Positions 5,451 to 28,153 of a stretch of DNA of 64,000 nucleotides are shown piece by piece. The notes below the pieces were generated by a model. It saw only the letters and a program-made list of their open reading frames with translations, was not told where the DNA came from and ran no database searches. Numbering within the stretch: the first letter of the stretch is position 1; every line of letters starts with the position of its first letter. Source of the DNA: Pseudoxanthomonas composti (GTDB taxonomy: Bacteria > Pseudomonadota > Gammaproteobacteria > Xanthomonadales > Xanthomonadaceae); contig NZ_SAWZ01000006.1 of NCBI RefSeq assembly GCF_004122095.1, forward strand, positions 62,001 to 126,000, in the 5' to 3' direction. The translations under genes were made by a program, and so were the position numbers.

Positions 5451-5544
5451 TCCGCATCGCGCGGGCGCGCGGGGTGTTTTTCCGACGCAGCGATGGCCGT
5501 TGCGCCGCTGGCGCGCGGCGGCCGCGGCGCGCACGCTGACTGCC

Positions 5545-7648: not shown

Positions 7649-7747
7649 GGCAAGAAACGAGTGGAGAGGAACGAGGAACGAGAGGAGCTGGGCGCCATGA
7701 CTGCCGGGGCCTTACTCGTTCCTCGTTCCTCATCTCTCGTTCCTGCC
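7649..7747 (+). repeat. Inverted heptamer-array element 1 (unit GGAACGA)
   Basis: The left arm reads GAAACGA, GTGGAGA, GGAACGA, GGAACGA, GAGGAGC in exact 7-bp register. After a short core, the right arm is the reverse complement of GGAACGA, GAGATGA, GGAACGA, GGAACGA and ends in CCTGCC. The whole can fold into a long imperfect hairpin. It starts directly after the recG stop codon and fills the gap to the nucleoside hydrolase gene. It shares its skeleton, but not its unit sequence, with the element at 18.3-18.45 kb. Confidence 0.85.
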
Positions 7748-7788
7748 TATGGCAGACTCGGCGGCCGTTCCATCAAGGCCCGCCGGGC

Positions 7789-8724
7789 ATGACCGACAAG
7801 ATCCCGCTTCTCATCGATACCGATCCCGGCGTGGATGACGCCCTGGCGCTGCTGATGGCCCTGCATTGCCCGCAGCACGAGGTGGTGGGGCTGACCATCG
7901 CCGCCGGCAACGTCGGGCTGCGCTACACCGTGCGCAATGCGCTCAAGCTGTGCGAAGTGGCCGGCCGTCCGGACATCCCGGTGTTCGCCGGCTGCGCCGA
8001 ACCGCTGCTGCATCCCTCGCCGGATGCGGCCGAGGTCCACGGGCAGGATGGCTTCGGCGATGTCGGATTCCCCGAAGCCCGCACCCAGGTCCAGGACGAA
8101 CATGCCGCCCTGGCGCTGCTGCGGCTCTCGCACCAGTACGCCGGCGAGCTGGTGCTGGTGACCCTGGGCCCGCTGACCAATGTCGCCCTGGCGCTCAAGC
8201 TGGACCCCACGCTGCCCACCCGCATCAAGCGCCTGGTGGTGATGGCCGGCGCGGTGAGCGCGCACGGCAACATCACCCCGGCAGCGGAGTTCAACGTGGC
8301 CTTCGACCCTGAGGCCGCGCACCTGGTGCTGCGCGCCTTTCCGAAGTTCGACCTGGCCGACTGGGAGGCCACGCTTGCCCACGGCTTCCTGCATCGGGAA
8401 GTGGAGCAGTGGCTCCAGGCCGCCAGCGAGCGCGCCCGCTTCTACGAGGCCATCTCCCGCAACACCCGGCTGTGGTCCGAGGACCGGCGTGGCGACCATT
8501 GGCACAGCGCCGACTCGCTGGCCATGGCCTTCGCCCTGGACCCGGAAGGGGCCCTGGAGATCGCCGAGCGCCCGCTGGGCGTGGAGCTGGCCGGCACCCT
8601 GACCCGCGGCGCGACCGTGACCGACTGGAACCGGCAGACCGGGGCGCCCGACAATGCGCGGATCCTGCTGCGTTACGATCAGGCAAGGTTCGAGGCGCGG
8701 GTGCGGGCGGCATTGGCGGCCTGA
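7789..8724 (+). CDS. Nucleoside hydrolase (IunH/Rih family)
   Basis: A 311-residue cytoplasmic enzyme predicted to cleave the N-glycosidic bond of ribonucleosides for purine/pyrimidine salvage. The Ca-binding signature DTDPGVDDALALL is at the N terminus, and later family segments LVTLGPLTNVALAL, MAGAVSAHGNITPAAEFN and the catalytic-region histidine in a C-terminal HSADSLAMAFALDP are present. Substrate preference (inosine-uridine or pyrimidine-specific) cannot be assigned from sequence alone. It stands alone between an intergenic repeat element and the rpmE2 promoter. Confidence 0.92.
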   Translation: MTDKIPLLIDTDPGVDDALALLMALHCPQHEVVGLTIAAGNVGLRYTVRNALKLCEVAGRPDIPVFAGCAEPLLHPSPDAAEVHGQDGFGDVGFPEARTQVQDEHAALALLRLSHQYAGELVLVTLGPLTNVALALKLDPTLPTRIKRLVVMAGAVSAHGNITPAAEFNVAFDPEAAHLVLRAFPKFDLADWEATLAHGFLHREVEQWLQAASERARFYEAISRNTRLWSEDRRGDHWHSADSLAMAFALDPEGALEIAERPLGVELAGTLTRGATVTDWNRQTGAPDNARILLRYDQARFEARVRAALAA

Positions 8725-8744
8725 GCCGGGTAGGCGTAGGTGGC

Positions 8745-8774
8745 TTGCGCCGGCCGGGGTAGGGCCGTTATAAT
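8745..8774 (+). promoter_or_regulatory. Sigma-70 promoter of rpmE2
   Basis: TTGCGC, an 18-bp spacer and a perfect TATAAT, about 35 bp upstream of the rpmE2 start. This is one of the few consensus -10 boxes in the window, fitting a highly expressed ribosomal protein gene. Confidence 0.75.
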
Positions 8775-8809
8775 GCGCGGCTCACCTGCCTGTCACTAAT
8801 GGTTCCCTC

Positions 8810-9052
8810 ATGAAGGCCGACATCCACCCCCAGTACCGCGACGTCGTCTTCCACGATGTCACCTCCGATTTCAAGATCCTGACCCGCTCGACCCTTGCCA
8901 GCAAGGAAACGATCAAGTGGGAAGACGGCAACGAATACCCGCTGCTGAAGGTGGAAATCTCCTCGGCCTCGCACCCGTTCTACACGGGCAAGCACAAGGT
9001 CGTGGACACCGGCGGCCGCATCGACAAGTTCCAGAAGCGTTACCAGAAGTAA
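8810..9052 (+). CDS. rpmE2: 50S ribosomal protein L31 type B (zinc-independent)
   Basis: An 80-residue L31 paralogue with the family start [16 protein letters not shown] and the segment [20 protein letters not shown]. It has no CxxC pair and contains no cysteine, so it is the C-minus type that does not bind zinc. In bacteria with both forms, this type replaces the zinc form under zinc limitation; whether this genome also encodes the zinc form cannot be seen here. It is a single-gene unit with its own consensus promoter and terminator. No Zur-like operator was recognised. Confidence 0.96.
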
Positions 9053-9080
9053 GCGGCCCTGCCGCAGTAACGTTTGCATG

Positions 9081-9105
9081 AAACGGCCGCGCAAGCGGCC
9101 GTTTT
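9081..9105 (+). terminator. Rho-independent terminator after rpmE2
   Basis: A 10-bp perfect stem AAACGGCCGC / GCGGCCGTTT with a GCAA tetraloop, running into TTTTCATTT. Confidence 0.85.
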
Positions 9106-9222
9106 CATTTGCGCGTGGTGAAGGGGCGCGATGACACCCCGGACAGGTCCTGCCCAGGCGCGCAGGGTCTCATCCTTTGGTCTGGTGCGTTGCAGCAGCC
9201 AGGGGTCGGATTTGGGTGGCTG

Positions 9223-9231
9223 TGCGATAAT
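9223..9231 (+). promoter_or_regulatory. Putative extended -10 promoter of gltA
   Basis: TGC directly precedes GATAAT, about 88 bp before the gltA GTG. No clear -35 hexamer is seen, as expected for an extended -10 promoter. Confidence 0.5.
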
Positions 9232-9318
9232 TTGGGGATTCTTCGGCAATCGCCGCGGATGTCCCACAACGCAATCCCGGATCGCTCCGGGAGAAGCACC
9301 CCACGTAAGGAGCGCACT

Positions 9319-10599
9319 GTGTCCGAACTTGACAAGGTCACGCTGAACGCCGGCGACAAAGCCGTCGCCCTGCCTGTCTTGAAACCGACGCTTGGCAACG
9401 ACTGTGTCGACATTTCCAAGCTGACCAAGGAAACCGGTCTCTTCACCTACGACCCGGGCTTCGGCGCCACCGCCAGCTGCAAGTCGGCCATCACCTACAT
9501 CGATGGCGACCAGGGCGTGCTGCTGTATCGCGGCTACCCGATCGACCAGCTGGCCGAGAAGTCCAGCTTCACCGAAGTCTCCTACCTGCTGATGAACGGC
9601 GAGCTGCCCAGCGCCGCCGAGCTGGCCAAGTTCGAGGACGAGGTGACGCATCACACGATGATGCACGAGTCGCTCAAGGCCTTCCTGCAGGGCTTCCGCC
9701 ACGACGCGCACCCGATGGCCATGCTGGCCGCCTCGGTGGCCTCGATGTCGGCGTTCTACCATGACACCCTGGACCTGCAGGACCCCGAGCAGCGCCGCCT
9801 GGCCGCGATCCGCCTGATCGCCAAGATGCCCACGCTGGCCGCTGCCGCCTATCGCTATTCGATCGGCCACCCGATCCGCTACCCGCGCAACAGCCTGGGC
9901 TACACTGAGCGCTTCCTGCACATGATGTTCGAAGTGCCCAGCGAGGAACTCGAGCTGAGCCCGGTGATCGCCAAGGCGATGGATCTGCTGTTCATCCTGC
10001 ACGCCGATCACGAGCAGAACGCCTCCACCTCCACCGTGCGCCTGGTCGGCTCCACCGGTGCCAACCCCTACGCCTCGGTCGCCGCCGGCATCACCGCGCT
10101 GTGGGGTCCGGCCCATGGCGGCGCCAACGAGGCCGTGCTCAAGCAGCTGGCCGAGATCGGCGATGCCAAGAACGTGGCCAAGGCCGTCGAACGCGCCAAG
10201 GACAAGAACGACCCGTTCCGCCTGATGGGCTTCGGCCACCGCGTCTACAAGAACTTCGACCCGCGCGCCAAGATCATCCGCGAGATGACCCACAAGGTGC
10301 TCGGCGAGCTGGGCGTGAACGACCCGCTGCTGGATGTGGCGATGAAGCTGGAAGAGTTCGCGCTGAAGGACGACTACTTCGTCGAGCGCAAGCTGTATCC
10401 GAACGTGGATTTCTACAGCGGCATCATCTACAAGGCGCTGAAGATCCCGACCGAGATGTTCACGGTGCTGTTCGCCATCGGTCGCACCCCGGGCTGGGTG
10501 TCGCATTGGCTGGAACAGCAGGTCGACCCGGACGCCCGCATCGGCCGTCCGCGCCAGATCTACACCGGCTCGCCCAAGCGCGACTACGCCAAGGCCTGA
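9319..10599 (+). CDS. gltA: Citrate synthase (type II)
   Basis: A 426-residue enzyme condensing acetyl-CoA and oxaloacetate to citrate, the entry step of the TCA cycle. Catalytic-region motifs include [25 protein letters not shown] and [14 protein letters not shown]. The length and N terminus match the hexameric, NADH-sensitive type of Gram-negative bacteria. The GTG start was chosen because it has a TAAGGAG ribosome-binding site and the protein then begins VSELDKVTL as in relatives; the upstream in-frame extension is non-conserved. It is a single-gene unit with its own promoter and terminator. Confidence 0.97.
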
Positions 10600-10623
10600 G
10601 CCTTCGCGCCTGCGCAGTCCTGG

Positions 10624-10650
10624 ACGCCCCGCCTCGCGCGGGGCGTTCGC
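10624..10650 (+). terminator. Terminator after gltA
   Basis: A 9-bp stem ACGCCCCGC / GCGGGGCGT with a 5-base loop, followed by TCGCGTTT. GC-rich with a short U-tract. Confidence 0.7.
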
Positions 10651-10758
10651 GTTTGACGCCCCGCGGGCGGCTTGCGGGCATGACCATCGACGGATACCGG
10701 ACAGGCCATCAGCCGCGCTATCGTCGCCGCACCTATCGATGGGGAAGGGAGTCTTGCC

Positions 10759-12147
10759 ATGCGTGTGTTCCGACTGGCCGTGCTGGCCGCCGGGCTGAGC
10801 CTTGCCGTGTCCGCCACGGCCGCAACACCGGACCGCTGGGAACTCCCGGTGGCGACCAAGCAGCTATCCAACGGACTGACCGTGGTGGTCTCCGAAGACC
10901 ACAGCGCACCGGTGGTCGGCATCAGCGTGGTCTACCACGTGGGCATGCGGCTGGAGCCGCGCAACCGCACCGGCTTCGCGCACCTGTTCGAGCACCTGAT
11001 GTTCCAGGGCACGCCGGAGTCGAAGAAGGGCGTGTTCGACAGCGTCATCACCGGCGGCGGCGGCCGCAACAACGGTTCCACGCGCGCGGACTTCACCAAC
11101 TACATCGAGACCGCGCCCAGATCGGCGCTGGAGCCGATGCTGTGGCTGGAAGCGGACCGCATGAAGACTCTGGACTTCAACCCGACCACGCTGAAGAACC
11201 AGCAGGACGTGGTGAAGGAGGAGATCCGCAACAACGTGAAGAACCAGCCCTATGGCGGCTTCATGTGGATCGACATCGGCCAGCAGGCCTTCCAGAAATG
11301 GGAGAACAACCACGACGGCTACGGCAGCTTCCAGGACCTGGAGAACGCCAGCCTGGAGGACGTGCGCGCCTTCCATCGCGATTACTACGGCCCCAACAAC
11401 GCGGTGCTGGCCATCGCCGGCGACGTCACCCCGGAGCAGGGTTTCGCCCTGGCGCAGAAGTACTTCGGCGCGATCCCCGCGCGCGAGACGCCGGCCAAGC
11501 CCGATTACCGCGAGGGCCTGAACACCGCCGAGAAGCGCGTCGTGCAGTCCGATGCGCTGGCGCAGGTGCCGGCGATCGCCGCGGCCTGGAAGATGCCCGA
11601 CCGCGGCAGCAAGGACCAGGCGCCGATGGCGGTGCTGGGCGCGCTGCTGGCCGGCGGCGATGCCTCGCGGCTGTACCAGGGGCTGGTCAAGGGCCGCGAG
11701 TTGGCGCTGAACGTGGACAGCCTCTATGGTTTGACCAGCGCCTGGGAATACGACGGCCCGACCTTGTTCACCGTGTTCGCGCTGTACAAGCCCGATAGCA
11801 GCGCCGAGGCGGTGCTCAAGGGCATCGACGAAGAAGTGGCCAGGATCGCCAGCGAGGGCGTGGACGCGCCGACCCTGGCGCGGGTCAAGACCCAGCTGCT
11901 GGCCGAGTGGTACGACGGCATGGAGATGTTCCTGGACCGCGCCGATACGCTGGCCAAGCTGCAGACGCTGTGGGGCGATGCCAAGGTCGCCAACCAGATC
12001 CCGGGCTGGATCGAGCAGGTCACCGCCGCCGACGTGCAGCGCGTGGCCAAGACCTACCTGACCCAGGCCAACCGCACGGTCATCGACCGCAAGCCGGCGG
12101 CCATGTTGCAGCCATCCACCGCGCCCGCCGCCAAGACCCAGCCCTGA
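10759..12147 (+). CDS. Secreted M16 family zinc peptidase, catalytic subunit
   Basis: A 462-residue protein with a Sec signal peptide (hydrophobic residues about 6-20, cleavage near ATAA). The inverted zinc motif HLFEH is intact at 75-79, with a downstream glutamate in the VVKEEIRNN segment as third-ligand candidate. It is therefore the catalytic half of a bacterial pitrilysin/insulinase-like M16B pair, acting in the periplasm or membrane on short peptides. The next gene, 11 bp downstream, encodes an M16 protein without the metal site; such pairs form heterodimers. A GGAAGGGA ribosome-binding site precedes the ATG. Confidence 0.93.
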   Translation: MRVFRLAVLAAGLSLAVSATAATPDRWELPVATKQLSNGLTVVVSEDHSAPVVGISVVYHVGMRLEPRNRTGFAHLFEHLMFQGTPESKKGVFDSVITGGGGRNNGSTRADFTNYIETAPRSALEPMLWLEADRMKTLDFNPTTLKNQQDVVKEEIRNNVKNQPYGGFMWIDIGQQAFQKWENNHDGYGSFQDLENASLEDVRAFHRDYYGPNNAVLAIAGDVTPEQGFALAQKYFGAIPARETPAKPDYREGLNTAEKRVVQSDALAQVPAIAAAWKMPDRGSKDQAPMAVLGALLAGGDASRLYQGLVKGRELALNVDSLYGLTSAWEYDGPTLFTVFALYKPDSSAEAVLKGIDEEVARIASEGVDAPTLARVKTQLLAEWYDGMEMFLDRADTLAKLQTLWGDAKVANQIPGWIEQVTAADVQRVAKTYLTQANRTVIDRKPAAMLQPSTAPAAKTQP

Positions 12148-12158
12148 AGGAGCACGCC

Positions 12159-13577
12159 ATGAGCATGATGCGCATCATTCCCTTGTCGCTGGCCCTTGCC
12201 CTGGCCTTGAGCCCCGGCCTGCACGCCGCCGAAAAGGCCGCCTTGCCGGCCGCGCTGCCGGCCTACGGCGCCGACAAACCGCTGCCGGTCCCGGCGATCG
12301 AGAAGAAGACCCTCGCCAACGGCCTGGAGGTCTGGGTCGTGCCGCGCCAGGGCGTTCCGCGCGTGGACTACGTGCTGGCGCTGCGCGAAGCCGGCCTGGC
12401 CGCCGACCCGGCCAATGCGCCGGGCTTTGCCAGCCTGTTCGCCGGCCTGCTGACCGAGGGCACCGGGCAGCACGATGCCCGCCAGATTGCCGAGCTGGCG
12501 CAGGGCATGGGCGGCGGCCTGTCGGCCACGGCCAGCAACGATGCGGTGTTCCTCAGCGCCCATGCGCTGGCCTCGCACGGCACGCCGATGCTGCAGTTGC
12601 TGGCCGAAGTCGCCCGCCAGCCGACCTTTCCGGAAAACGAGGTGCGCCTGGCGCAGGCCAACGCCGCCCAGCAGCTGAAGGCCTCCGAGTCGCAGCCCTC
12701 GTTCCGGGCTTCGCGCGCGCTGCTCAAGGCGGTCTATGGCGAGCACCCATACGCGCGTACGCAACTGGCCGAATCCACCATCCCGGCCCTGACCCATGGC
12801 GCGCTGGAAGCTGCCCACCAGGCGCGCTTCCAGCCCAAGCGTGCGCTGCTGGTGATCACCGGGCGGGTGACGCCGGCCCAGGCCTTTGCCGAGGCCGAAC
12901 GTGCCTTCGGCGACTGGAAAGCCGAGGGCAAGGCCGTGGCCGCCACGCCGAAGGCGCTGTCCGACGTGGCGCCCACGCGCGTGGTGCTGCAGCGCGATGG
13001 CAGTGTGCAATCCACCTTCCGCATCGGTCGCCCGGCCATTGCCGCTACAGATGTCGACTACGTGCCGATGCAGCTGGCCAGCACCGTGCTCGGCAGCGGC
13101 ATCAGCAGCCGCCTCAACCAGAACCTGCGCGAGGAAAAGGGCTACACCTATGGCGCCGGCGCGGGACTGGCCGCCGCGCGCGAAGGCGGCAACGTCATCG
13201 CCCAGGCCGATGTGCGCAACGAGGTCACCGGCGCCTCGCTCAAGGAGTTCTTCCACGAGTTCCAGCGGCTGGGGCAGGAGCCGGTGCCGGCGAAGGAACT
13301 GGATGCGGTCAAGCGCTATGTCGCTGGCGGTTATCTGATCACCAACCAGTTGCAGGGATCGGTGGCCCTGAGCCTGGCGCGCAACTGGGCGGTGGGACTG
13401 CCGGCGGAATTCCTGGGCCAGTACGTGCCCAAGATCCGCCAGGTCGATGCGGCCACCCTGCAGCAGGTGGCCAAGCGTTACTGGGACCCGGCCCAGCAGA
13501 GCGTGGTGGTGGTGGGCGATGCGGCGCAGGTGGCCGAGCAGCTCAAGCCGTTCGGGACGTTCAAGATCGAGCGCTGA
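12159..13577 (+). CDS. Secreted M16 family protein, non-catalytic partner
   Basis: A 472-residue protein with a signal peptide ending near LHAA. At the place of the HxxEH motif it has SLFAG at 92-96, so both histidines and the catalytic glutamate are gone. It keeps the RxxxGxxY-type motif of the inactive subunit in LREEKGYTYGAGAGL, which contributes substrate-binding residues in M16 heterodimers. With the preceding gene it should form an active/inactive pair. The 11-bp spacing with an AAGGAG site implies co-transcription. A shared bidirectional hairpin follows. Confidence 0.92.
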   Translation: MSMMRIIPLSLALALALSPGLHAAEKAALPAALPAYGADKPLPVPAIEKKTLANGLEVWVVPRQGVPRVDYVLALREAGLAADPANAPGFASLFAGLLTEGTGQHDARQIAELAQGMGGGLSATASNDAVFLSAHALASHGTPMLQLLAEVARQPTFPENEVRLAQANAAQQLKASESQPSFRASRALLKAVYGEHPYARTQLAESTIPALTHGALEAAHQARFQPKRALLVITGRVTPAQAFAEAERAFGDWKAEGKAVAATPKALSDVAPTRVVLQRDGSVQSTFRIGRPAIAATDVDYVPMQLASTVLGSGISSRLNQNLREEKGYTYGAGAGLAAAREGGNVIAQADVRNEVTGASLKEFFHEFQRLGQEPVPAKELDAVKRYVAGGYLITNQLQGSVALSLARNWAVGLPAEFLGQYVPKIRQVDAATLQQVAKRYWDPAQQSVVVVGDAAQVAEQLKPFGTFKIER

Positions 13578-13610
13578 GCGCAGGCGCGGACCTGGCGCCT
13601 GCTCGAACAC

Positions 13611-13636
13611 GAACGCCCCGCTCAGCGGGGCGTTCG
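13611..13636. terminator. Bidirectional terminator between M16 pair and efflux operon
   Basis: An 11-bp perfect stem GAACGCCCCGC / GCGGGGCGTTC with a 3-base loop between two convergent units, so it can serve both strands. U-tracts are short on both sides. Confidence 0.65.
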
Positions 13637-13655
13637 CGTCTGGCGCTGCAGCAGA

Positions 13656-14660: not shown

Positions 14661-14668
14661 GGCGATTC

Positions 14669-14872
14669 TCAGTTCAACAGGGCCAGGCCCATCAGTCCGA
14701 ACACGCAGACGTACAGGCCAAGGCGGAAAAGCGGCGGGTGCCAGGCGTAGCGGTACAGGCCGAGCCGGCCGGCCAGGCCGTCGAGCAGCCAGAACAGCAC
14801 GAACAGGCCGGCGGCCAGCACCAGCAGGCCGGGCACGTAGACGCCACCGAGGGAGATTTCAGCGGGCAGCAT
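14669..14872 (-). CDS. DUF1656 small membrane protein (AaeX-like)
   Basis: A 67-residue protein with two predicted membrane helices (about residues 10-30 and 45-65) and the family start PAEISLGGVYVPGLL. DUF1656 proteins occur between FUSC/AaeB and HlyD/AaeA genes; their role in efflux is not well established. The ATG is preferred over an in-frame TTG two codons upstream. It overlaps the end of the FUSC gene by 14 bp, consistent with translational coupling. Confidence 0.88.
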   Translation of the reverse strand: MLPAEISLGGVYVPGLLVLAAGLFVLFWLLDGLAGRLGLYRYAWHPPLFRLGLYVCVFGLMGLALLN

Positions 14873-17515: not shown

Positions 17516-17529
17516 GGTTATGCGCCTTT

Positions 17530-17560
17530 ATTTCAGATGCGTATATTACATTAATGAAAT
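17530..17560 (-). promoter_or_regulatory. Candidate MarR operator/promoter
   Basis: ATTTCA and TGAAAT form inverted half-sites with a 19-bp spacer in a sharply AT-rich patch. On the minus strand it contains TAATAT as a possible -10 box. Its place directly before the marR-type GTG fits an autoregulated promoter. Confidence 0.45.
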
Positions 17561-17604
17561 AAATGGCATCGAAACAGCGCTTCACGACCTTGAATGGCGC
17601 TAGC

Positions 17605-18249: not shown

Positions 18250-18285
18250 GGCAGACCTCCGCGAGAGTCGCCCAGGACTTTATAC

Positions 18286-18453
18286 GAGGGGTGAGTGAAG
18301 AGGAGTGAGGAGTGAGCGAAGGCGAGGAGTGAGTGGAGAGGAGTGAGGAGTGAGCAAAAGCGCTAGAGCGCAGTCGGATTGCGGCGGGCCTCTGGGTTTC
18401 GCTCTTGCCCTTACTCACTTCTCACTTCTCACTTCTCACTCCTCACTCCTGCC
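18286..18453 (-). repeat. Inverted heptamer-array element 2 (unit GGAGTGA)
   Basis: The left part has GGAGTGA twice, a 10-bp break, then GGAGTGA, GTGGAGA, GGAGTGA, GGAGTGA in perfect 7-bp register. The right arm, read on minus, is GGAGTGA twice then GAAGTGA three times. The GTGGAGA interruption and the terminal TTACTC and CCTGCC segments match element 1 although the unit differs. It abuts the PBP1A stop codon on the minus strand. On minus the core contains AGGGCAAGAG, resembling AGGGCAACAG in element 3. Confidence 0.85.
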
Positions 18454-20871
18454 TTAAAAGATATCGAACGCCGCCTCGTTGCCGGCCGAATCCTCAGGTC
18501 CGTACAGGTCCTCGCTCTGCAGCTTGTCCAGGTCCTCGACCTTGACCCACTCGGTGGCGCCGTTGAGCGTGGCCTGCACCATGCCTTCAGGCGGATCGTT
18601 GGCCGCGATCGGCTGGTCCTTCAGTGCCACGCGCATGTAGTCGATCCAGATCGGCAGGGCGGCCTTGCCGCCGTACTCGCGATAGCCGAGGGAGCGGAAG
18701 TCATCGCGGCCGACCCAGACGGTGGTGACGGTGTTGCCGCCGAAGCCGGAGAACCAGGCATCGCGATGGTCGTTGGTCGAGCCGGTCTTGCCGCCCACAT
18801 CCTCCCGGCCCAGCACCTTGGCCGCCGTGCCGGTGCCGCGCTGGACCACGTCGCGCATCATCGACACCAGCTGATAGGCGGTGCGCGGGTCGATCGCGCG
18901 CGGTGCGTTGAGCACATCGGCCGGCGGCGCCTCGGCGGCCTTGGCCTGTTCCTCGGGCTTGGGCTGCGCGGCTGCCTGCGCGGCCTGCGCCGGGCCGAAG
19001 TTGAAGCCATCGACCACGTTGTTCACGGGGCCGCCCTGTCCGGAGGTGCCGATGCAGCTGCGGCAGGCCGTGGCCGGCTTTTCCTTGTAGATCACATTGC
19101 CCTGGCGGTCCTTGACCTCGTCGATGAACCAGGGCGTCACCAGCGAGCCGCCGTTGACGAAGGTTGCATAGCCGCGCGCCACGGACAGCGGCGTCAGCGA
19201 GGCGGTGCCCAGAGACATGGACAGGTTGGGCGGCAGCTCGGATTCATTGAAGCCGAACTGGCTGATGTACTTGCGCGCGTAGTCCACGCCAATGCTGTCC
19301 AACAGGCGCACCGAGACCAGGTTCTTGGACTTCACCAAGGCTTCGCGCAGACGCATCGGGCCGGCGAAGCCGCCGCCGTCGTTCTGCGGGCGCCACATGT
19401 GGCCGCGGCGGTCGCGGAACACCACCGGCGCATCCAGCACGATCGAGGCCGGGTTGAAGCCGCGGTCGAACGCGGCCGAGTACAGGAAGGGCTTGAAGCT
19501 CGAGCCCGGCTGGCGACGCGCCTGGGTGGCGCGGTTGAACTTATTGGCCGCGAAGCTGTAGCCGCCGATGATCGCCTTGATCGCACCGGTACTGGCGTCC
19601 AGCGAGACCAGCGCCGACTGCGCGCGCGGCAGCTGGTCGACCTCGTAGGCGTCCTTGTCGTTGACGCTCAGCCGGACCAGATCGCCGGGCTGGAAAAGCT
19701 TGGCCGGCGGCCGCCCGACCCATTTGCTGGCCGAGGCCGGCAGCACGATGCTGCGTCCATCGGCAGCGATGACCGTGGCCCCGCCATCGGATTCGGCCTT
19801 GAGCATGACCGTCGGGATCAGGCCGCCCTGGGCGACCTTGCCGCGCAGGAACTTGGCGATGGCCTGCGGATCGGTCTCGGTGCCGATCTCGAAATGGTCC
19901 TCGGCCCCGCGCCATCCGTGGCGGCGGTCGTACAGGCTCAGGCCATCGCGCACGGCCTTGTCGGCCGCGGCCTGCATCTGCCCATCGACGGTGGTGGTGA
20001 CGTGGTAGCCCTTGGTCAGCACGTCGCCACCGAAGCGGGCGATCATTTCCTGGCGCACCATTTCCGCCACGTAGGGCGCATAGACCTCCACCGGGCGCTC
20101 GTGCGGCGTGGCATGCATCTGCTCGGACTTGGCGGCCGCCCCGGCCTGCGCCGACAGGTAGCCTTCCTCCACCATGCGGTCGATGACATAGCCGCTGCGC
20201 TGCTTGTTGCGCTCGGGATTGCTGATGGGATTGCCGCTGGAGGGAAACTTGACCGTGCTGACCAGGGTCGCCGTCTCCAGCAGGCTCAGCTCCTTGAGCG
20301 GCTTGCCGTAGTAGTACTCGGCGGCGGCCGCGATCCCGTAGGAGCGATTGCCGAAGAAGCTCTTGTTGAGATACAGCTCCAGGATCTCGTCCTTGGACAG
20401 CATCTTCTCGATGCGCAGCGCCAGCATCATCTCGGCCAGCTTGCGGGTATAGCTGTATTCCGAACTCAGGAAGAATTGGCGCGCCACCTGCTGGGTGATG
20501 GTGCTGCCGCCGGCCACGCGGCCTTCCTTGGTCAGGGTCTGCCAGACCGCACGGCTGATGCCGGTGGGGTCGATGCCGTTGTGCTTGTAGAAGCTGGCGT
20601 CCTCGGCCGAGACGAAGGCCTCCTTCACCTGTTGCGGCACCGCGGCAATATTGACCGGATAGCGCCGGGTCTCACCGAACAGGCCGATCAGGCGGCCGTC
20701 GCTGGAGTACACGTAGAGCGGCTCCTGCATCTCGATGTTGCGCAGGGAGCTGATGTCGGGCAGCTTGGCCGAAACCGAGCGGTACAGGACGCCCAAGCCA
20801 ACGGCGGCCACGACCGCGAGGGCCAGGCCAAGGACGATCGCCCAGCGCAGAAGACGGCGGAAAAGTGGCAT
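18454..20871 (-). CDS. mrcA: Penicillin-binding protein 1A (class A, bifunctional)
   Basis: An 805-residue peptidoglycan synthase with an N-terminal membrane anchor (about residues 8-30). The GT51 glycosyltransferase has the catalytic glutamate in [13 protein letters not shown] and GGSTITQQ; the transpeptidase has the serine motif SSFK, the SxN motif SKN and KTGS in [15 protein letters not shown]. An OB-like insertion characteristic of PBP1A lies between the domains. The ATG is preferred because an upstream in-frame start would be TTG and would leave almost no leader after a TATACT box. It is divergent from pilMNOPQ, the usual arrangement in this lineage. Confidence 0.96.
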
Positions 20872-20908
20872 CCAGTTCAAATTCCGATTGCACAAATTCT
20901 GGCGCAGG

Positions 20909-20914
20909 AGTATA
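20909..20914 (-). promoter_or_regulatory. Probable -10 box of mrcA
   Basis: On the minus strand TATACT lies 38 bp upstream of the chosen mrcA ATG. A matching -35 box is not clear. Confidence 0.4.
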
Positions 20915-21020
20915 GATGCAACCGCCTTGAGGGGTGTTTTCTGTCGCCGAAACAGTGGCTTGGGGGAAATCTTTCGCGGAAAGTGACGACTCGATCACGC
21001 CGCGTGAGACGGGTCACGTA

Positions 21021-21028
21021 TGTAAAAT
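21021..21028 (+). promoter_or_regulatory. Probable -10 box of pilMNOPQ
   Basis: TGTAAAAT within an AT-rich stretch 72 bp before the pilM GTG. The -35 region is not recognisable. Confidence 0.35.
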
Positions 21029-21030
21029 GA

Positions 21031-22157
<1,127 letters not shown>

Positions 22158-22158
<1 letters not shown>

Positions 22159-22865
22159 TGGCAAAGATCAATCTTCTGCCCTGGCGCGCGGAACGCCGCG
22201 CCCAGCGCCAGAAAGAGTTCTACGGGATGCTCGGCGTGGCCGCCGCCATCGCTGTGGGCCTGTCGGTGCTGATTTACATGTATTACGGCGCCCAGATCGA
22301 CGGACAGCAGGAGCGCAACACCTTTTTGCAGGGCCAGATCCAGGAGGTCGAGGCGCAGATCACCCAGATCGATGAGCTGGACAAGCAGCGCGATCGGCTG
22401 CTGGCCCGCAAGAAGGTGATCGAGGAGCTGCAGGCCAACCGCTCGCAGATGGTCCATCTGTTCGATTCGCTGGTGCGCACGATTCCCGACGGCGTGATCC
22501 TGACCAGCATCAAGCAGGACGGCAACATCCTGACCCTGCAGGGACGCTCCCAGTCCAATGCCCGCGTCAGCACCTACATGCGCAACCTGGAAGGCTCGGG
22601 CTGGATGAGCAAACCGGACCTGTCCATCATCGAGGCCAAGCAGGCCGATGATGCCGCCGGCGCCCCCAAGCCGGTCGTGCCGACCTCGCGCGCCTTGCCG
22701 TACGCGTTCACCCTGACCGTGCAGCTGGCCGAGCCAGGTGCGTCTTCGCCCGAGGCAACGCCTGTAGATGGCGCCGCGCCGGCCGCTAATCCTCCTGCGG
22801 CGGCCCCCGCCGCGCCGTCGCCACCGGCTGCACAGCCCGCGCCCCAGGGGACCCCGGCGTCATGA
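22158..22865 (+). CDS. pilN: Type IV pilus inner-membrane protein PilN
   Basis: A 235-residue bitopic protein. The short cytoplasmic tail carries INLLPWRAERR, the segment that docks into PilM; one membrane helix follows (about 24-44), then a periplasmic coiled coil and a ferredoxin-like domain (VILTSIKQDGNILTLQGRS). The C terminus has about 40 extra residues rich in proline and alanine (from about residue 195), longer than usual and probably disordered. The start overlaps the pilM stop (TGATG), and the end overlaps pilO. Confidence 0.95.
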
Positions 22866-23530
22866 GCAAGAAAGTCAAACTCAACGAGCTGGACTTCAAC
22901 AACATCGGCGGCTGGCCGCAGAACGCCAAAATCGGCTTCTGCGTGCTGGTGGGCGTGCTGATCCTGCTGCTGGCCTGGTTCCTGATGATCAGCGGCCGCA
23001 AGGAGGAACTGGAGGGCCTGGAAAGTCAGGAATCCCAGCTGCGCGCGGATTTCGAGACCAAGGCCGGCCGCGCCGCCAACCTGGAGCCGCTGCGCCAGCA
23101 GTTGAAGCAGATGGAGCAGGTGCTCCAGCAGATGCTGCGCCAGCTGCCCAGCAAAACCGAAATGCCGGACCTGATCGTGGACATCTCGCAGACCGCGCTG
23201 TCCAGCGGCCTGTCCAACGAGCTGTTCCAGCCCGGACCAGAGTCGCCCAAGGAGTTCTACGCCGAGAAGCCGATCGCCCTGCGTATGGTGGGCAGTTACC
23301 ACCAGTTCGGCGCCTTTGTCAGCGGCGTGGCCTCGCTGCCGCGCGTGGTCATCCTGACCATGCACGACATTTCCCTGCAGCCCAAGCCGGGTGCCAACGG
23401 CATCAGCAGCGGCGCCCTGGAGCTGTCCGGCACGGTGCGGACCTACCGCTACCTGGACGAAGAAGAAACCGCGGAGCAGGAGAAGAAGGCGGCTGAGGCG
23501 GCCAAGGCGGCCACGGCGGGGGGGCAGTGA
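22862..23530 (+). CDS. pilO: Type IV pilus inner-membrane protein PilO
   Basis: A 222-residue partner of PilN: short cytoplasmic segment (KVKLNELDFNNIGGWP), one membrane helix (about 22-42), a periplasmic coiled coil (REELEGLESQESQLR region) and a pseudopilin-like alpha/beta domain with RMVGSYHQFGAFVSGVASLPRVV. PilN and PilO form heterodimers that link PilM to the PilP/PilQ outer-membrane part. The ATG overlaps the pilN stop by 4 bp and the C-terminal tail is short, charged and alanine-rich. Confidence 0.96.
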   Translation: MSKKVKLNELDFNNIGGWPQNAKIGFCVLVGVLILLLAWFLMISGRKEELEGLESQESQLRADFETKAGRAANLEPLRQQLKQMEQVLQQMLRQLPSKTEMPDLIVDISQTALSSGLSNELFQPGPESPKEFYAEKPIALRMVGSYHQFGAFVSGVASLPRVVILTMHDISLQPKPGANGISSGALELSGTVRTYRYLDEEETAEQEKKAAEAAKAATAGGQ

Positions 23531-24069
23531 TGGCACGTTTCATGCTTGTTGTTTCTCGGGCCATGGTGGCCGCTGTCGCCATGCTGGCGCTGGCCGGTTG
23601 CGGGCGCAGCATCACCAGCACGCCGGGCGATGCACCGAATCTGGAAAAGTGGGTCAACGATGTGCGGGCGCGTCCGGCACCGCCGCTGGAGCCGTTGCCG
23701 GTGATGCAGCAGTTCGAGACGTTCGAGTACTCGGCGCAGGGCTTGCGCGATCCCTTCAGCGACGCCTGGGCGGTGAGCGATGCCGGCGGCCTGCGGCCCG
23801 ACCCGAACCGGCGCAAGGAAACGCTGGAGCAGTATCCGCTGGACAGCCTGGACATGGTGGGCACGATCGGCAGCGGCGCAGGCTTGGTCGCGCTGGTCAT
23901 GGCGCCGGACAAGGTGACCTACCGGGTGAGGGTGGGGGCGTATGTGGGGCAGAGCGACGGTCGCATCACTGGCATCAGCCAGGACCGCATCGAGCTGGTG
24001 GAGCTGGTTCCGGACGGTGCGGGTGGCTGGTTGGAACGGCCCGCGGCGATCGCGCTGAATGAACAATGA
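23530..24069 (+). CDS. pilP: Type IV pilus lipoprotein PilP
   Basis: A 179-residue lipoprotein with lipobox LAGC at about residues 22-25, so it is inner-membrane anchored and periplasmic. The extended N-terminal part binds PilN/PilO and the C-terminal HR domain, with DPFSDAWAV and GTIGSGAGLVALVMAPDKVTYRVRVG, contacts the PilQ secretin. The ATG overlaps the pilO stop; a GTG one codon upstream is also possible. It belongs to the pilMNOPQ operon. Confidence 0.95.
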   Translation: MARFMLVVSRAMVAAVAMLALAGCGRSITSTPGDAPNLEKWVNDVRARPAPPLEPLPVMQQFETFEYSAQGLRDPFSDAWAVSDAGGLRPDPNRRKETLEQYPLDSLDMVGTIGSGAGLVALVMAPDKVTYRVRVGAYVGQSDGRITGISQDRIELVELVPDGAGGWLERPAAIALNEQ

Positions 24070-24083
24070 TTAGGGGATACACG

Positions 24084-25958
24084 ATGAGTGTTTTCAAAGT
24101 GCGCGCTTCGCACCCTGCCATGCGGCAGAACTACGTCCGCGCCTGCCTGCTGGGACTGGCGATCGCCGTGTCCATGGGCAGCGCGATGGCTTCGCCCGCG
24201 GCCGGGGACAAGGCTGCGGTTGTCTCGACCGTCCAGGTGTCCAAGGTCGATTTCAAGCGCGGCACCGATGGCGCGGGCCGCCTTGTGCTGCAGTTCGATG
24301 GCCAGGGCGCCGTGCCTGACCTGAAGAACAACGGCAATCAGGTGATCGTGGACGTGGGCAATGCCTCGTTGCCGGCCAACCTGCAGCGCCCGCTCAACGT
24401 GGTGGATTTCGCCACCCCGGTCCAGCGCGTGGATGCGCACGCGCTGGGGCGCGGCACGCAGTTCGTGCTGGAGACCAAGGGCGAGTTCGAATCGCTGGCA
24501 TACCAGACCGGCAACGAGTACGTCGTCGAAATCGCGCCACGCAGCGCCAAGGCGGCGACCGGCGCGGCACAGGCCAGACCGGCCTCCTCTACGGCAGCCG
24601 CCGGTGCCAAGACCTATGGCGGTCGCCCGGTGACCTTCAACTTCCAGGACGTGCCGGTGCGCACCGTCCTGCAGCTGATCGCCGAGGAATCCAACCTCAA
24701 CATCGTCGCCTCGGACACCGTGCAGGGCAATGTGACCCTGCGCCTGGTCAACGTGCCCTGGGATCAGGCGCTGGAGATCGTGCTGCGCGCCAAGGGCCTG
24801 GACAAGCGCCGCGACGGCGCGGTGATCTGGGTCGCCCCGCAGTCCGAGCTGGCCAAGTACGAGCAGGACAAGGAAGACGCGCGTATAGCCATCGAGAACC
24901 GCGAGGACACGATCACCGATTACGTGCAGATCAACTATCACAGCGCTTCGGCCATCTACAAGGCGCTGACGGAGGCCAAGGGGATCGGTGGCGCGGGGGG
25001 CGGTGGTGGTGGCGGCGCGGGTGGTACTGCGCAGAACGACAGCGGGTTTCTGTCACCCAGGGGGCGCCTGGTGGCCGATGAGCGCACCAACACGCTGATG
25101 ATCAGCGATATCCCCAAGAAGGTCGCGCAGATGCGCGAGCTGATCAACGTGATCGACAAGCCAGTCGATCAGGTGTTGATCGAAGGGCGCGTCGTTGTAG
25201 CCACTGACACCTTTGCACGCGATCTAGGCGCCCGGTTCGGCCTGCAGGGGCGTCGCCTCGGGAACAACACCGGAGCGATCAGCGGCACCTTGGCCGGTAA
25301 CCAGTCCATCATCAACGATGCCGAAGTCACCATCCCAGGCGGCCTCAACGTGGATCTGGCTGCGGGCACTTACACCGATGCGACACCCGGCTCGCTGGCC
25401 TACACCTTGCTGGGCGCCAATTTCGCGATCGATCTGGAACTGTCCGCGATGCAGGAAGAGGGGCGCGGCGAGGTCCTGTCCAACCCCCGCCTGATCACCT
25501 CCAACCAGCGCGAGGCGTTCATCCGCCAGGGCCAGGAGATCGGTTACGTCACCATCACTGGCGGCACAGGCGGTGCCGCCGCCACGCCGAACGTGCAGTT
25601 CAAGGAAGCGCTGCTGGAGCTGAAGGTCACCCCGACCATCACCGACGACGGTCGCGTGTTCCTCAACCTCAACGTCAAGAAGGATGAGGTGCAGGAGTAC
25701 ATCACCCTGGCCGGCTATGGCTCGGTGCCGATCCTGGCCAAGCGCGAGATCAATACCGCCGTGCTGGTCGACGACGGCCAGACCGTCGTGATCGGTGGCG
25801 TGTACGAGTTCACCGACCGCGAGAGCGTGGCCAAGGTTCCGTTCCTGGGCGACATTCCGTTCCTGGGCAATCTGTTCAAGCAGCGTGGTCGCCAGAAGAA
25901 CAAGGCCGAACTGCTGATCTTCGTCACCCCCAAGGTGATGGCCGTGCCCAAGCGCTGA
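24084..25958 (+). CDS. pilQ: Type IV pilus secretin PilQ
   Basis: A 624-residue outer-membrane secretin through which the pilus passes. After a signal peptide (cleavage near AMAS) there is one clear AMIN domain (about 45-150), N0/STN (FNFQDVPVRTVLQLIAEESN), an N1 domain and the C-terminal secretin core ending with VPFLGDIPFLGNLFKQR. A glycine-rich loop (about 303-315) interrupts the N1 region. The ATG with AGGGGA upstream is preferred over an ATG six codons earlier. About 250 bp near 25.17-25.42 kb use codons rare elsewhere (CTA, GTA, CCA, ACA, GGA), hinting at local sequence exchange. Confidence 0.96.
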   Translation: MSVFKVRASHPAMRQNYVRACLLGLAIAVSMGSAMASPAAGDKAAVVSTVQVSKVDFKRGTDGAGRLVLQFDGQGAVPDLKNNGNQVIVDVGNASLPANLQRPLNVVDFATPVQRVDAHALGRGTQFVLETKGEFESLAYQTGNEYVVEIAPRSAKAATGAAQARPASSTAAAGAKTYGGRPVTFNFQDVPVRTVLQLIAEESNLNIVASDTVQGNVTLRLVNVPWDQALEIVLRAKGLDKRRDGAVIWVAPQSELAKYEQDKEDARIAIENREDTITDYVQINYHSASAIYKALTEAKGIGGAGGGGGGGAGGTAQNDSGFLSPRGRLVADERTNTLMISDIPKKVAQMRELINVIDKPVDQVLIEGRVVVATDTFARDLGARFGLQGRRLGNNTGAISGTLAGNQSIINDAEVTIPGGLNVDLAAGTYTDATPGSLAYTLLGANFAIDLELSAMQEEGRGEVLSNPRLITSNQREAFIRQGQEIGYVTITGGTGGAAATPNVQFKEALLELKVTPTITDDGRVFLNLNVKKDEVQEYITLAGYGSVPILAKREINTAVLVDDGQTVVIGGVYEFTDRESVAKVPFLGDIPFLGNLFKQRGRQKNKAELLIFVTPKVMAVPKR

Positions 25959-25980
25959 GTCGTCGGCTGGGGCTGTCATG

Positions 25981-26010
25981 CAACAGGCCACCTCCGGGTG
26001 GCCTGTTTGC
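25981..26010 (+). terminator. Rho-independent terminator after pilQ
   Basis: An 11-bp perfect stem AACAGGCCACC / GGTGGCCTGTT with a TCCG loop, followed by TGCATTTG. It closes the pilMNOPQ operon. Confidence 0.8.
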
Positions 26011-26093
26011 ATTTGAAGCAATGGTGAATTGCTGTCTGAACCAATTCAGCCGGGATCGGTCAGAATCGGGGCGAGTTCACCATCGGATCCCCC

Positions 26094-27098
26094 ATGACCG
26101 CATCGTTGGAGACGCAGCCGCCCGAAGTGGCGCGGTTGCATGCCGATATCCAGGCCTTGAGGCAGGGCCTGGGTGAGGCCATCGTCGGACAGGAAGCCCT
26201 GATCGAGCGTCTGTTGATCGCCCTGTTGGCCGATGGCCATCTGCTGGTGGAGGGGGCTCCTGGCCTTGCCAAGACCACGGCGATCCGGGCCCTGGCCTCG
26301 CGTCTGCAGGCCGATTTCGCGCGTGTGCAGTTCACTCCTGACCTGCTCCCCGCCGATTTGACCGGGACCGAGGTCTGGCGCCCGCAGGATGGTCGCTTCG
26401 AATTCCAGGCCGGGCCGATCTTCCACCCCATCCTGCTGGCCGATGAAATCAATCGCGCCCCCGCCAAGGTGCAATCGGCGCTGCTGGAAGCCATGGGCGA
26501 GCGCCAGGTGACGGTGGGCCGGCACACCTATCCATTGCCGGCGCTGTTCCTGGTGATGGCCACGCAGAACCCGATCGAGCAGGAAGGCACCTTCCCGCTG
26601 CCCGAGGCGCAGCTGGACCGGTTCTTGATGCATGTGCGCATCGGTTACCCGCAGGCGGACGCGGAGGCCGAGATCCTGCGGCTGGCGCGCGAGCGCGCAC
26701 GTAGCGCGCTACAGGTCGAGGCCGCCCCCGCAGCGCGCATGCCGATCGAGGATGTCCTGGCCGCTCGGCAGTCGGTGCTGGACGTGCACGTCTCGCCCAG
26801 CCTGGAGCGTTACCTGATCGAGCTGGTGCTGGCTTCGCGCGATGCCGGGCGCTACGACGCCGAGCTGGCCCGGCGCATCGCCTGGGGCGCCAGCCCGCGC
26901 GGCTCGATCGCACTGGAACGCTGCGCCCGCGCCCGGGCGTGGCTGGCCGGACGCGACTACGTGACGCCCGAGGACGTGCAGGCCGTGGCCCCGGATGTCC
27001 TGCGTCACCGCGTGCTGCCCAGTTACGAGGCAACCGCCGAGGGCTGGGACGGCGATCGGCTGGTCAAGGCGCTCCTGGAGCGGGTGCCGCTGCCGTGA
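26094..27098 (+). CDS. MoxR-family AAA+ ATPase
   Basis: A 334-residue ATPase with Walker A GAPGLAKTT, Walker B/MIDAS-helper segment LLADEINRAPAKVQSALLEAM, and sensor-1 ATQNPIEQEGTFPLPEAQLDRF, all diagnostic of MoxR. MoxR ATPases act as chaperones, typically with VWA-domain partners encoded alongside, here BatA-like and BatB-like proteins. It is the first gene of a six-gene operon in which each following gene starts at or just beside the previous stop. Its stop overlaps an in-frame GTG of the DUF58 gene as GTGA. Confidence 0.95.
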   Translation: MTASLETQPPEVARLHADIQALRQGLGEAIVGQEALIERLLIALLADGHLLVEGAPGLAKTTAIRALASRLQADFARVQFTPDLLPADLTGTEVWRPQDGRFEFQAGPIFHPILLADEINRAPAKVQSALLEAMGERQVTVGRHTYPLPALFLVMATQNPIEQEGTFPLPEAQLDRFLMHVRIGYPQADAEAEILRLARERARSALQVEAAPAARMPIEDVLAARQSVLDVHVSPSLERYLIELVLASRDAGRYDAELARRIAWGASPRGSIALERCARARAWLAGRDYVTPEDVQAVAPDVLRHRVLPSYEATAEGWDGDRLVKALLERVPLP

Positions 27099-28153
27099 AG
27101 CCGGGACCAGGGACCGGGGACCGGGGACCCGGGGAAGCTCCGCGAGCGGAGGGCAACAGAGTCAGCCCTTCTCGGCGTGCGTCCAGCGCGGAAGCCCGTC
27201 TACATGCCGCTGGCTTCCCGGGTCCCGGGTCCCCGGTCCCCGGTCCCGGCATCGTCCCCAGCCCCGGCATCGTCCCCGATCTCGCCGACCTGGTGGCCCT
27301 GCGCGGCCTCGCGCAGCGTCGCGCCACGGCCAAGGTCGGCCGCGTCGGCATGAGTGGGCCGGCCCCCTCGACCCTGCGCGGGCGCGGCATGGAGTACGCC
27401 GAGTCGCGCGAATACGTGACCGGCGATGATGCCCGGCATATCGACTGGCGGCTGACCGCGCGCAGTGGCCGCACGCATACCAAGCTCTTCCAGGCCGAGC
27501 GCGAGCGGCTGACCCTGCTGGTGGCCGATACCTCGCCGCACGTGTACTTCGGCACCCGGGCGCGCTTCAAGTCGGTGCAGGCCGCGCGCGCGGCCGCAGT
27601 CATGGCCTGGGCGGCGGTGGCCGAGGGAGACCGGGTCGCGGCCTTGCGCGGCAGCGCCGCCGAGGCGCCGGTGCCGCCGGCACAGGGCGCGCGCGGCGCA
27701 TTGCGGGTGCTGGATGCCTTGCGCCGCTGGTATTCCGGGCCGCCTTCTGACGACACTGGCCTCGGGCTGGCGATGGATCGGGCGTTCCGCATGTTGCGGC
27801 CCGGCGGGCGTCTGCTGGTCCTGGCCGATGCGGGCAGTCTCGACCAGGTCAGCCAGGCGCGCTGGGACGCGCTGGCTGCCTATCACCAGGTCGGGCTGGT
27901 GCTGTTGACCGATGCACTGGAACAGCAGCCGCCCAGGTCCAGTTTGCCGTTCTGGAACGGGCGCGCGGCGGTGGACGTCGATCTGGACAGCGCCGGTCCA
28001 CGCCAGCAGTGGCGCGCACGGTTTGCAGCGCCGGTGGCGCAAGCGCTTGAGCACCTGCCGCGGCGTGGCATCGCCACGATGGCCCTGGCGACGGATGCGC
28101 CAGTCGAGCAATGCCTGTCGGTGTTGGGGCGGGCCCCGGTGCGCGCGGCATGA
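27095..28153 (+). CDS. DUF58 protein with repeat-encoded N-terminal extension
   Basis: A 352-residue soluble DUF58 protein. The family core is intact: GRGMEYAESREYVTGDDARHIDW and a VWA-like fold from about residue 130 with LLVADTSPHVYFGTR. The proposed GTG overlaps the MoxR stop (GTGA), matching the coupling in the rest of the operon. From this start, residues about 4-52 (many Gly, Pro, Arg) are encoded by heptamer-array element 3, and recognisable family sequence starts near IVPDLADLVALRGLA. PGIVP is duplicated by an 18-bp direct repeat at the junction. A downstream start such as the GTG at VALRG would remove conserved residues, so the extended form is favoured but unproven. Confidence 0.85.
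   Translation: MKPGPGTGDRGPGEAPRAEGNRVSPSRRASSAEARLHAAGFPGPGSPVPGPGIVPSPGIVPDLADLVALRGLAQRRATAKVGRVGMSGPAPSTLRGRGMEYAESREYVTGDDARHIDWRLTARSGRTHTKLFQAERERLTLLVADTSPHVYFGTRARFKSVQAARAAAVMAWAAVAEGDRVAALRGSAAEAPVPPAQGARGALRVLDALRRWYSGPPSDDTGLGLAMDRAFRMLRPGGRLLVLADAGSLDQVSQARWDALAAYHQVGLVLLTDALEQQPPRSSLPFWNGRAAVDVDLDSAGPRQQWRARFAAPVAQALEHLPRRGIATMALATDAPVEQCLSVLGRAPVRAA
27103..27248 (+). repeat. Inverted heptamer-array element 3 (unit GGGACCG), inside a gene
   Basis: The left arm is GGGACCA, GGGACCG, GGGACCG, GGGACCC, GGGGAAG without a break in register. The right arm is CTTCCCG, GGTCCCG, GGTCCCC, GGTCCCC, GGTCCCG, the mirror image. A core of about 75 bp includes AGGGCAACAG. Unlike elements 1 and 2, which are intergenic, this one lies just after the moxR stop codon but within the reading frame of the DUF58 gene. 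Confidence 0.85.
27245..27280 (+). repeat. 18-bp tandem duplication at the edge of element 3
   Basis: CCCGGCATCGTCCCC occurs twice with an 18-bp period, encoding PGIVPS-PGIVPD. It borders element 3 and could reflect the insertion or a later slippage event. Confidence 0.8.

Follow-up and report, generated by a model that had tools for sequence, protein, structure and literature searches.

Inverted heptamer arrays of Pseudoxanthomonas composti belong to a dispersed family associated with S23 protein genes

In REPIN-RAYT systems, the gene for a Y1 transposase (RAYT) is accompanied by palindromic repeats (repetitive extragenic palindromes, REPs). S23 proteins (PF05635) have, to our knowledge, no known catalytic site; the member from Xanthomonas campestris is a homopentamer, and a distant relative, Avd, assists a reverse transcriptase. 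Here we describe three elements in a 64,000-nucleotide stretch of the Pseudoxanthomonas composti genome (contig NZ_SAWZ01000006.1, positions 62,001 to 126,000; hereafter the window), each made of two inverted arms of tandem 7-bp units. They are members of a repeat family with copies across this genome, and arms of the same architecture enclose S23 genes. On balance we favour the view that the family has two parts, namely an S23 gene with its own heptamer arms and S23-less satellites, of which the window's elements would be examples.

Tandem heptamers and S23 proteins have each been described, and the statements that follow draw on parts of the papers cited. A 2018 survey found tandem heptamers to be the most abundant intergenic repeats over a wide range of prokaryotes, and its available text offers no clear functional clue (PMC6344855). 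The GGGAATC arrays of Xanthomonas, reported in 2015, occur as convergent pairs, 70 in one genome and 75 in another (PMC4692102), and TAACTGA repeats have also been described (PMC4679880). The 23S rRNA of Coxiella carries an intervening sequence (IVS) with an S23 open reading frame (ORF), a 28-bp stem and GACAGAT heptamers that is excised by RNase III, and the same account gives S23/PF05635 proteins no known function (PMC4990558). PF05635 has further been reported in cas loci (PMC3936711), ORFs for IVP occur in rRNA insertions of the candidate phyla radiation (PMC11270868), and a resemblance between PF05635 and Avd has been noted (PMC10053308). Our literature search, which lay outside most subscription papers and bioRxiv-only preprints, found no link between S23/PF05635 and flanking heptamer arrays or satellites.

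S23 genes enclosed by heptamer arms

The genome of the window (G000) comprises 4.33 Mb in 24 contigs. Among three larger arm-bounded blocks (L141, L143 and L144), only L144, which lies between GGAGTGA arms in this genome, contains a recognisable ORF. Its product is a PF05635 protein (23S rRNA-intervening sequence protein, TIGR02436 four-helix bundle), and XCC0516 (2gsc, five chains) is related to the same family (E 1.7e-52). The single S23 copy of the genome (L177; arms 1369-1888, gene 1483-1836) is located at an nrd site and has GGAGTGA arms. Since its genes lie between such arms and its site type predicts the dispersed unit, PF05635/S23 is a candidate partner protein for heptamer elements.

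S23 loci were gathered by protein search, without regard to repeats, and were scored by the period-7 agreement of both 28-nt arms plus the match between the arms; the cut-off of at least 48 was chosen after the genus run had been seen. Within the genus, 21 of the 23 PF05635 genes found in 38 genomes have inverted heptamer arms, the exceptions being L180 and L181. In the named genomes, which are mostly Lysobacterales and mostly of one S23 type, 76 of 80 loci (the best 80 of 576 confirmed) reach 48, with misses at L204, L221, L226 and L258. The phylum set (from 62 positive of 398 genomes) yields 22 of 30 loci at or above the cut-off with very different units, and four of the 30 are on short contigs with approximate coordinates (L277 and L281 scored 0, L279 scored 52 and L289 scored 58). 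Plasmids add 13 of 17 loci (17 of 29 records with S23). The total is 132 of 150 loci, or 127 of 145 without five named loci that repeat genus loci. None of 30 Y1_Tnp loci has such arms (maximum score 37), and none of 2000 random positions in relatives reaches 48 (maximum 43); the maximum for 2000 random positions in G000 is 49, in a genome that itself carries dispersed elements. At five loci (L276, L290, L294, L298 and L305) the arms are built of octamers and score 51-64, against a null maximum of 42 at that period in 1500 draws.

The association between S23 genes and arms extends over several phyla, as evident by its presence in Pseudomonadota, Cyanobacteriota and Bacteroidota, with octamer arms in Gemmatimonadota. 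The arm unit varies by lineage (GGAACGA, GGGAATC, GTAGGCA, GGGAACA, TTTTAGC) and is usually the same on both arms; S23 genes of Xanthomonas in the named set have GGGAATC-type or GGGATTC-type arms, and the plasmid units include GGGAACA (Nostoc), AGGGTGT (Calothrix), AGGTGAC (Anabaena), TTTTAGC (Pseudanabaena) and AGGTTTA/AGGTTCA (Riemerella). A gene's own two arms match each other at more of their 28 positions than mismatched arms do: 24.5 versus 17.9 in the genus, 24.4 versus 21.4 in the named genomes and 23.3 versus 16.2 in the phylum set, where 28 of the 30 loci were compared.

With flanking genes labelled by short motifs, the 23 genus loci are distributed over accB-accC (11), nrdA-nrdB (7), carA-carB (3), dnaK-dnaJ (1) and one site elsewhere. 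All seven nrdA-nrdB copies are antisense, and 76 of the 80 named loci lie co-directionally in the accB-accC gap. At one nrdA-nrdB locus (L182, G021), the S23 element apparently extends in frame, by its right arm, into the part of the adjoining nrd gene that codes for the N-terminus. On three cyanobacterial plasmids (L298, L299 and L304), S23 genes with heptamer or octamer arms are located between cas10 and a cmr3-family gene or, twice, between cas6 and cas4. The 16 annotated plasmid stretches list a putative transposase beside S23 in one case and a phage integrase in one; no reverse transcriptase is listed in them, and no search for one near S23 was made.

Arm agreement, exchanged cassettes and resident S23 type

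A search of 864 kb of G000 yields 64 skeleton arms of the A type (at most four mismatches), whereas the shuffled sequence contains none. The variable dinucleotide is identical in all three units of 59 of these arms (34 AC, 25 GT), and AC and GT units are never mixed within any of the 64. Convergent A-type pairs (n=22) comprise 16 AC/AC, 5 GT/GT and a single AC/GT (Fisher p 2.3e-4). When all unit types are considered, 19 of 23 convergent pairs carry the same unit, a count in which one arm may belong to two pairs and which none of 10,000 permutations reaches (mean 7.9). An earlier note on the window had proposed that the unit changes in both arms together against a fixed skeleton. The first part holds for 21 of the 22 A-type pairs in this genome; GTGGAGA, by contrast, is only a preferred skeleton heptamer (17 of 64 A-type arms), and this heptamer leans with the unit, GTGNAGA-like beside AC and GCGNAGA-like beside GT.

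For acc-type S23 genes, arms were tabulated for 84 of 103 rows, a table that omits loci below 48, nrd and car loci, L180, L181, L252, L260 and L261, includes L227 (flanks not recognised) and contains five named rows that duplicate genus rows; our table of genus and named units by insertion site likewise omits loci below 48. Both arms are AAT in 44 rows and ATT in 40; no row is discordant, and the type changes three times along the S23 core tree. GGG and GTG account for 73 and 9 rows, one row being discordant and one undetermined.

Between near-identical strains, the whole accB-accC cassette (arms, interior and protein) is exchanged. Eight strain comparisons were made at this site. G015 (AAT) and G001 (ATT) have flanks that are 98.4% and 98.6% identical but S23 genes of only 68.2% identity; the corresponding values are 95.8/97.7% and 66.7% for X. 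arboricola (L209/L219), and 92.4/96.8% and 69.5% for G035/G034. In two same-type control comparisons, S23 is 98.1% and 89.0% identical. The concerted heptamer change envisaged in the earlier note is mostly seen in both arms together, but at least at accB-accC it reflects exchange of the whole cassette rather than unit-by-unit mutation.

A difference in S23 type may or may not be accompanied by one in the dispersed copies. Approximately 257 kb of G001 and G015 were aligned (95.1% identity, with 18 of 5,075 100-bp segments at or below 70%), and each strain has four paired elements there, all four shared and with flanks 94.6-99.4% identical. Both arms of these elements are ATT in G001 and AAT in G015. 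Their interiors are largely different by eye, although one site keeps a related terminator-like hairpin. G001 also carries a GGGAATC array (C1:326875-327515, matches listed over at least 640 bp), though its four sampled paired elements are of ATT type.

Across the genomes of the genus, the unit of the dispersed repeats goes with the type of S23 present. By one-sided Fisher tests not corrected for kinship, genomes with nrd-type S23 are associated with GGAACGA (6/7 versus 1/31 genomes, 1.7e-5) and GGAGTGA (7/7 versus 9/31, 9e-4), those with car-type S23 with GGGACYS (3/3 versus 2/35, 1.2e-3) and those with acc-type S23 with GGGAWTS (10/11 versus 10/27, 2.9e-3), whereas four non-cognate pairings among the genus genomes give no association (p 0.47-0.84). 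The matches counted in a genome take in those in the arms around its S23 gene (for example 2 of 5 in G002, 2 of 5 in G014 and 2 of 16 in G023). GTAGGCA, which was predicted for 4 of 30 genomes, is found in all four (34, 44, 17 and 6 matches, of which 21, 35, 8 and 4 are outside the S23 locus). GTGATTS, the unit of the S23 arms in G023 and partly in G028, occurs in 11 of 38 genomes and is most frequent in G028 (53), followed by G016 (31, no S23) and G023 (16).

The elements of the window and their dispersed relatives

All three elements of the window (Table 1) were recovered by a de novo search as inverted same-unit clusters, and a tandem-repeat search found the period-7 arrays in elements 2 and 3. 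As the earlier note had stated, each consists of two inverted arms of 7-bp units and adjoins a stop codon: that of the recG-like gene directly before element 1, that of the mrcA-like gene on the minus strand beside element 2, and that of the moxR-like gene before element 3, which is followed by a DUF58-like gene. Its statement that both arms use one unit fails for element 2, where the right arm is mostly GAAGTGA, and for element 3, where GGGACCG and GGGACCC are mixed. A core common to elements 2 and 3, AGGGCAANAG, is present. The elements are too short to contain an S23 gene.

Table 1. Positions in the window of the three heptamer elements and the genes that end beside them.
Feature	Coordinates	Strand	Description
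Element 1	7649-7747	+	Unit GGAACGA; left arm 7654-7682, gap of 32 nt, right arm 7715-7743
Element 2	18286-18453	-	Left arrays (GGAGTGA) 18300-18316 and 18338-18354; right arm (GAAGTGA with GGAGTGA) 18414-18450
Element 3	27103-27248	+	Units GGGACCG and GGGACCC; tandem-repeat arrays 27103-27135 and 27216-27249
recG-like gene	5500-7647	+	Ends just before element 1; name from translation read by eye
mrcA-like gene (penicillin-binding protein 1a)	18454-20895	-	Ends beside element 2; name from translation read by eye
moxR-like ATPase gene	26094-27098	+	Ends just before element 3; name from translation read by eye

Strand-specific RNA folds of the whole elements are strong (element 1, -67 kcal/mol, z -6.6; element 2, z -5.7; element 3, z -8.0). 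The suggestion of a non-autonomous repeat family or a structured RNA therefore stands to the extent that the family is real and its folds are strong. A miniature inverted-repeat transposable element with a conserved interior was rejected, as the interiors differ and at most a AGCAAAAGC-like core is common to some. An intrinsic terminator was likewise rejected, since no T run was seen by eye after the arms of the three elements. Between 27103 and 27320, the DUF58-like reading frame (ORF 26939-28153) stays open through element 3, which may supply the N-terminus of the protein, and 18 bp are tandemly duplicated across and beyond the right end of the element. Elsewhere in the window, a 122-bp tandem repeat (48056-48388; 2.8 copies, 91%) has a GGATGG...CCATCC inverted core, and by eye L141, also from G000, contains a similar sequence.

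The repeat family is real and dispersed through the genome, with the other copies that the earlier note had proposed to look for. A 464-kb sample of G000 (the window plus 20 evenly placed stretches) contains 12 perfect runs of period 7 that are 18 bp or longer, compared with none in one shuffled copy and 0-3 runs for each of the other periods (4-6 and 8-15), and 10 inverted same-unit clusters, compared with none after shuffling; the three elements are therefore not a product of chance. Genome-wide there are 156 matches to the GGAACGA dimer, 144 to the GGAGTGA dimer (its reversed control, with 41, is a rotation of that repeat), and 42 and 78 18-mer matches to GGGAWTS and GGGACYS; these figures are matches, elements having been counted in sampled stretches only.

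Nineteen clusters of G000 were placed with a crude gene finder of 77% coverage. Nine lie in tandem gaps, seven in convergent gaps, one in a divergent gap and two inside a called gene, and all gaps of at least 60 bp in the genome divide into 200, 89 and 64 of the three kinds. Median distances of 18 nt to 3' ends and 57 nt to 5' ends agree with the placement at gene 3' ends that had been put forward for checking. No inverted same-unit heptamer pair was found in the orthologous 20-kb stretches of 20 relatives, which have the same gene order. By eye, most relatives have a different hairpin in the mrcA gap and two (L069 and L070) have a GAGGAGTGAGTGGGAAGTGA remnant there, the recG gap holds REP-like repeats in some, and the moxR-DUF58 gap, occupied by element 3 in G000, is short in most.

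Explanations and comparison with known systems

In the two-part family that we favour, the full form would be a PF05635/S23 gene enclosed by two inverted heptamer (rarely octamer) arrays, and the satellites would consist of arms with a short interior that varies from copy to copy. S23 would most likely recognise its own heptamer array, either in DNA or as an RNA stem. Such recognition could hold arms and dispersed copies to a single type, and could let copies spread or replace one another. We infer the binding of the heptamer by S23, the movement of copies, the agent that would cut or copy them, and the level, DNA or RNA, at which this would occur.

Several observations weigh against this proposal. 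Units are abundant in genomes that lack S23 (57 GGAGTGA in G012, 53 GGGAWTS in G029, the 31 GTGATTS in G016, and others in G003 and G008), GTAGGCA occurs with 1-11 matches in 5 of the 26 other genomes (in G088 beside one of its own S23 genes), G000 itself contains GGAACGA, GGGACYS and GGGAWTS repeats for which it has no matching S23, and kinship may contribute to the Fisher values. Mismatched arms pass 48 in 271 of 420 genus, 1473 of 1500 named and 294 of 462 phylum combinations because units are alike within a lineage, and a tree-based sign test of arm covariation, with one supported independent pair, is underpowered. The S23 net charge in the genus ranges from -1 to +7, which does not make nucleic-acid binding evident. 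At the three elements of the window no target-site duplication was noticed, although no systematic search was made. G034 and G035 (55 kb aligned, 93.3%) differ in their S23 cassette and yet share one dispersed element, with related interiors, that is ATT in both; a single-arm array at an apparently matching place is also ATT in both, and G001 and G015 carry the same unpaired GGGATTCGGGATTT dimer. In G036, finally, the unit agrees in only 3 of 11 convergent pairs (a level reached by 1740 of 10,000 permutations) and disagrees in 8, some pairs having an arm in common; the evenly placed stretches are from G000 only, several of those from G036 and G021 having been placed on known matches.

Two mixed elements of G036 are possibly chimeras of two families, one with GGGACTG/GGGACCG in its left arm and GAAACGA in its right (L105:12918-13088), the other with GGAGTGA on the left and GGAACGA on the right (L102:12793-13031). 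In the same genome, a right GGGACCG arm is in frame inside an argG-like N-terminus (L098:2843-2984; name and frame by eye).

A possible, if unlikely, alternative is that the arms act at the RNA level, as long double-stranded stems at gene ends that are cut by RNase III or protect 3' ends, with S23 as an RNA-binding partner and movement rare and incidental. The strong folds and the proximity to stop codons (on the crude gene call) would suit this explanation, as would the different hairpins that relatives, judged by eye, have at these gene ends and, in the part of the source available, the RNase III cleavage of the Coxiella IVS with its S23 ORF and 28-bp terminal stem (PMC4990558). However, all seven nrd-site S23 genes are antisense to the operon, a structural role does not need unit, interior and protein to be swapped at a site that stays fixed, and element 3 sits where, by eye, most relatives have a short gap. 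It is rather doubtful, on the sequences compared, that S23 proteins are evolvable heptamer readers with one seven-letter code per S23 type, travelling as one cassette, such that dispersed elements could be rewritten in place after a new cassette enters. The four shared inverted elements of G001 and G015 would fit such rewriting, the one of G034 and G035 would not. If true, this would be a system, selfish or regulatory, that can switch its code across the whole genome, but the idea is weakened because the G034/G035 single-arm array and the G001/G015 unpaired dimer kept their type.

Neutral, microsatellite-like expansion, in which slippage builds arrays, hairpin-templated repair equalises arms and S23 merely occupies the same tolerant sites, appears improbable. 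Long arrays do exist, such as GGGAATC in G001 (326875 to 327515 among the matches listed), and heptamers are the most abundant intergenic tandem repeat in the 7006 prokaryotic genomes of the survey, as far as its available text goes (PMC6344855); yet arms bracket S23 genes across phyla and not Y1 transposase genes, the unit follows the S23 type, and interiors were exchanged with arms in one strain pair. A general role as G-quadruplex (G4) elements, which has been suggested for the GGGNATC-type repeats of Xanthomonas and Nostoc, is very improbable: GGAACGA, GGAGTGA, GTAGGCA, TTTTAGC and AGTCAGA units share the architecture without a GGG tract, which refutes it. GGG units also occur here, element 3 among them, and GGGAATC-type oligonucleotides form G4 in vitro according to the part of the report available (PMC4692102), so that G4 formation in some members is possible. 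A RAYT/Y1 transposase as the mover was rejected, since G000 has one Y1_Tnp with no heptamer dimers within 1.5 kb and, by inspection, Y1 counts do not track heptamer counts across genomes.

The elements of G000 resemble the Xanthomonas repeats of 2015 in being convergent tandem heptamers that are intergenic and near gene ends. The accessible text on Xanthomonas likewise places its arrays near stop codons and at mostly conserved sites, but describes one consensus unit per lineage, a proposed G4 and no partner protein (PMC4692102). The Coxiella IVS is similar in having an S23 ORF inside a long terminal stem, an arrangement shared by L177, and tandem GACAGAT near its 5' end; it differs in lying inside an rRNA gene, whereas the genus S23 genes occupy gaps between protein genes, with one elsewhere, and the available part of that account describes no dispersed satellites or match of unit and type (PMC4990558). 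Avd of diversity-generating retroelements is remotely similar to S23, L177 matching NCBIfam DivGenRetAVD at E 1.2e-5, which is under the cut-off of that model, but works with a reverse transcriptase.

As in REPIN-RAYT, a single protein gene lies between repeats of which the genome has further, scattered copies, but there the pair is a Y1 transposase and palindromic REPs, and here an unrelated S23 protein and heptamer arms; the 30 genus Y1_Tnp loci are not flanked by the heptamers. Many of these Y1_Tnp genes (L118-L140) are flanked, by eye, by TGTAGGAGCGACGTAAGTCGCGA-type REPs in a REPIN-RAYT-like manner. Through the nearly constant physical link between S23 and heptamers, in which the unit goes with the protein type, each acquires a partner that can be tested, and two open questions, the role of heptamer repeats and the function of S23, may be one. 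The link points to a protein paired with repeats, as known until now from REPIN-RAYT, but with an unrelated protein. By analogy, the family may be likened to REPIN-RAYT in its working and to the rRNA IVS in its protein and stem, while it would fall outside each by a defining test of that system.

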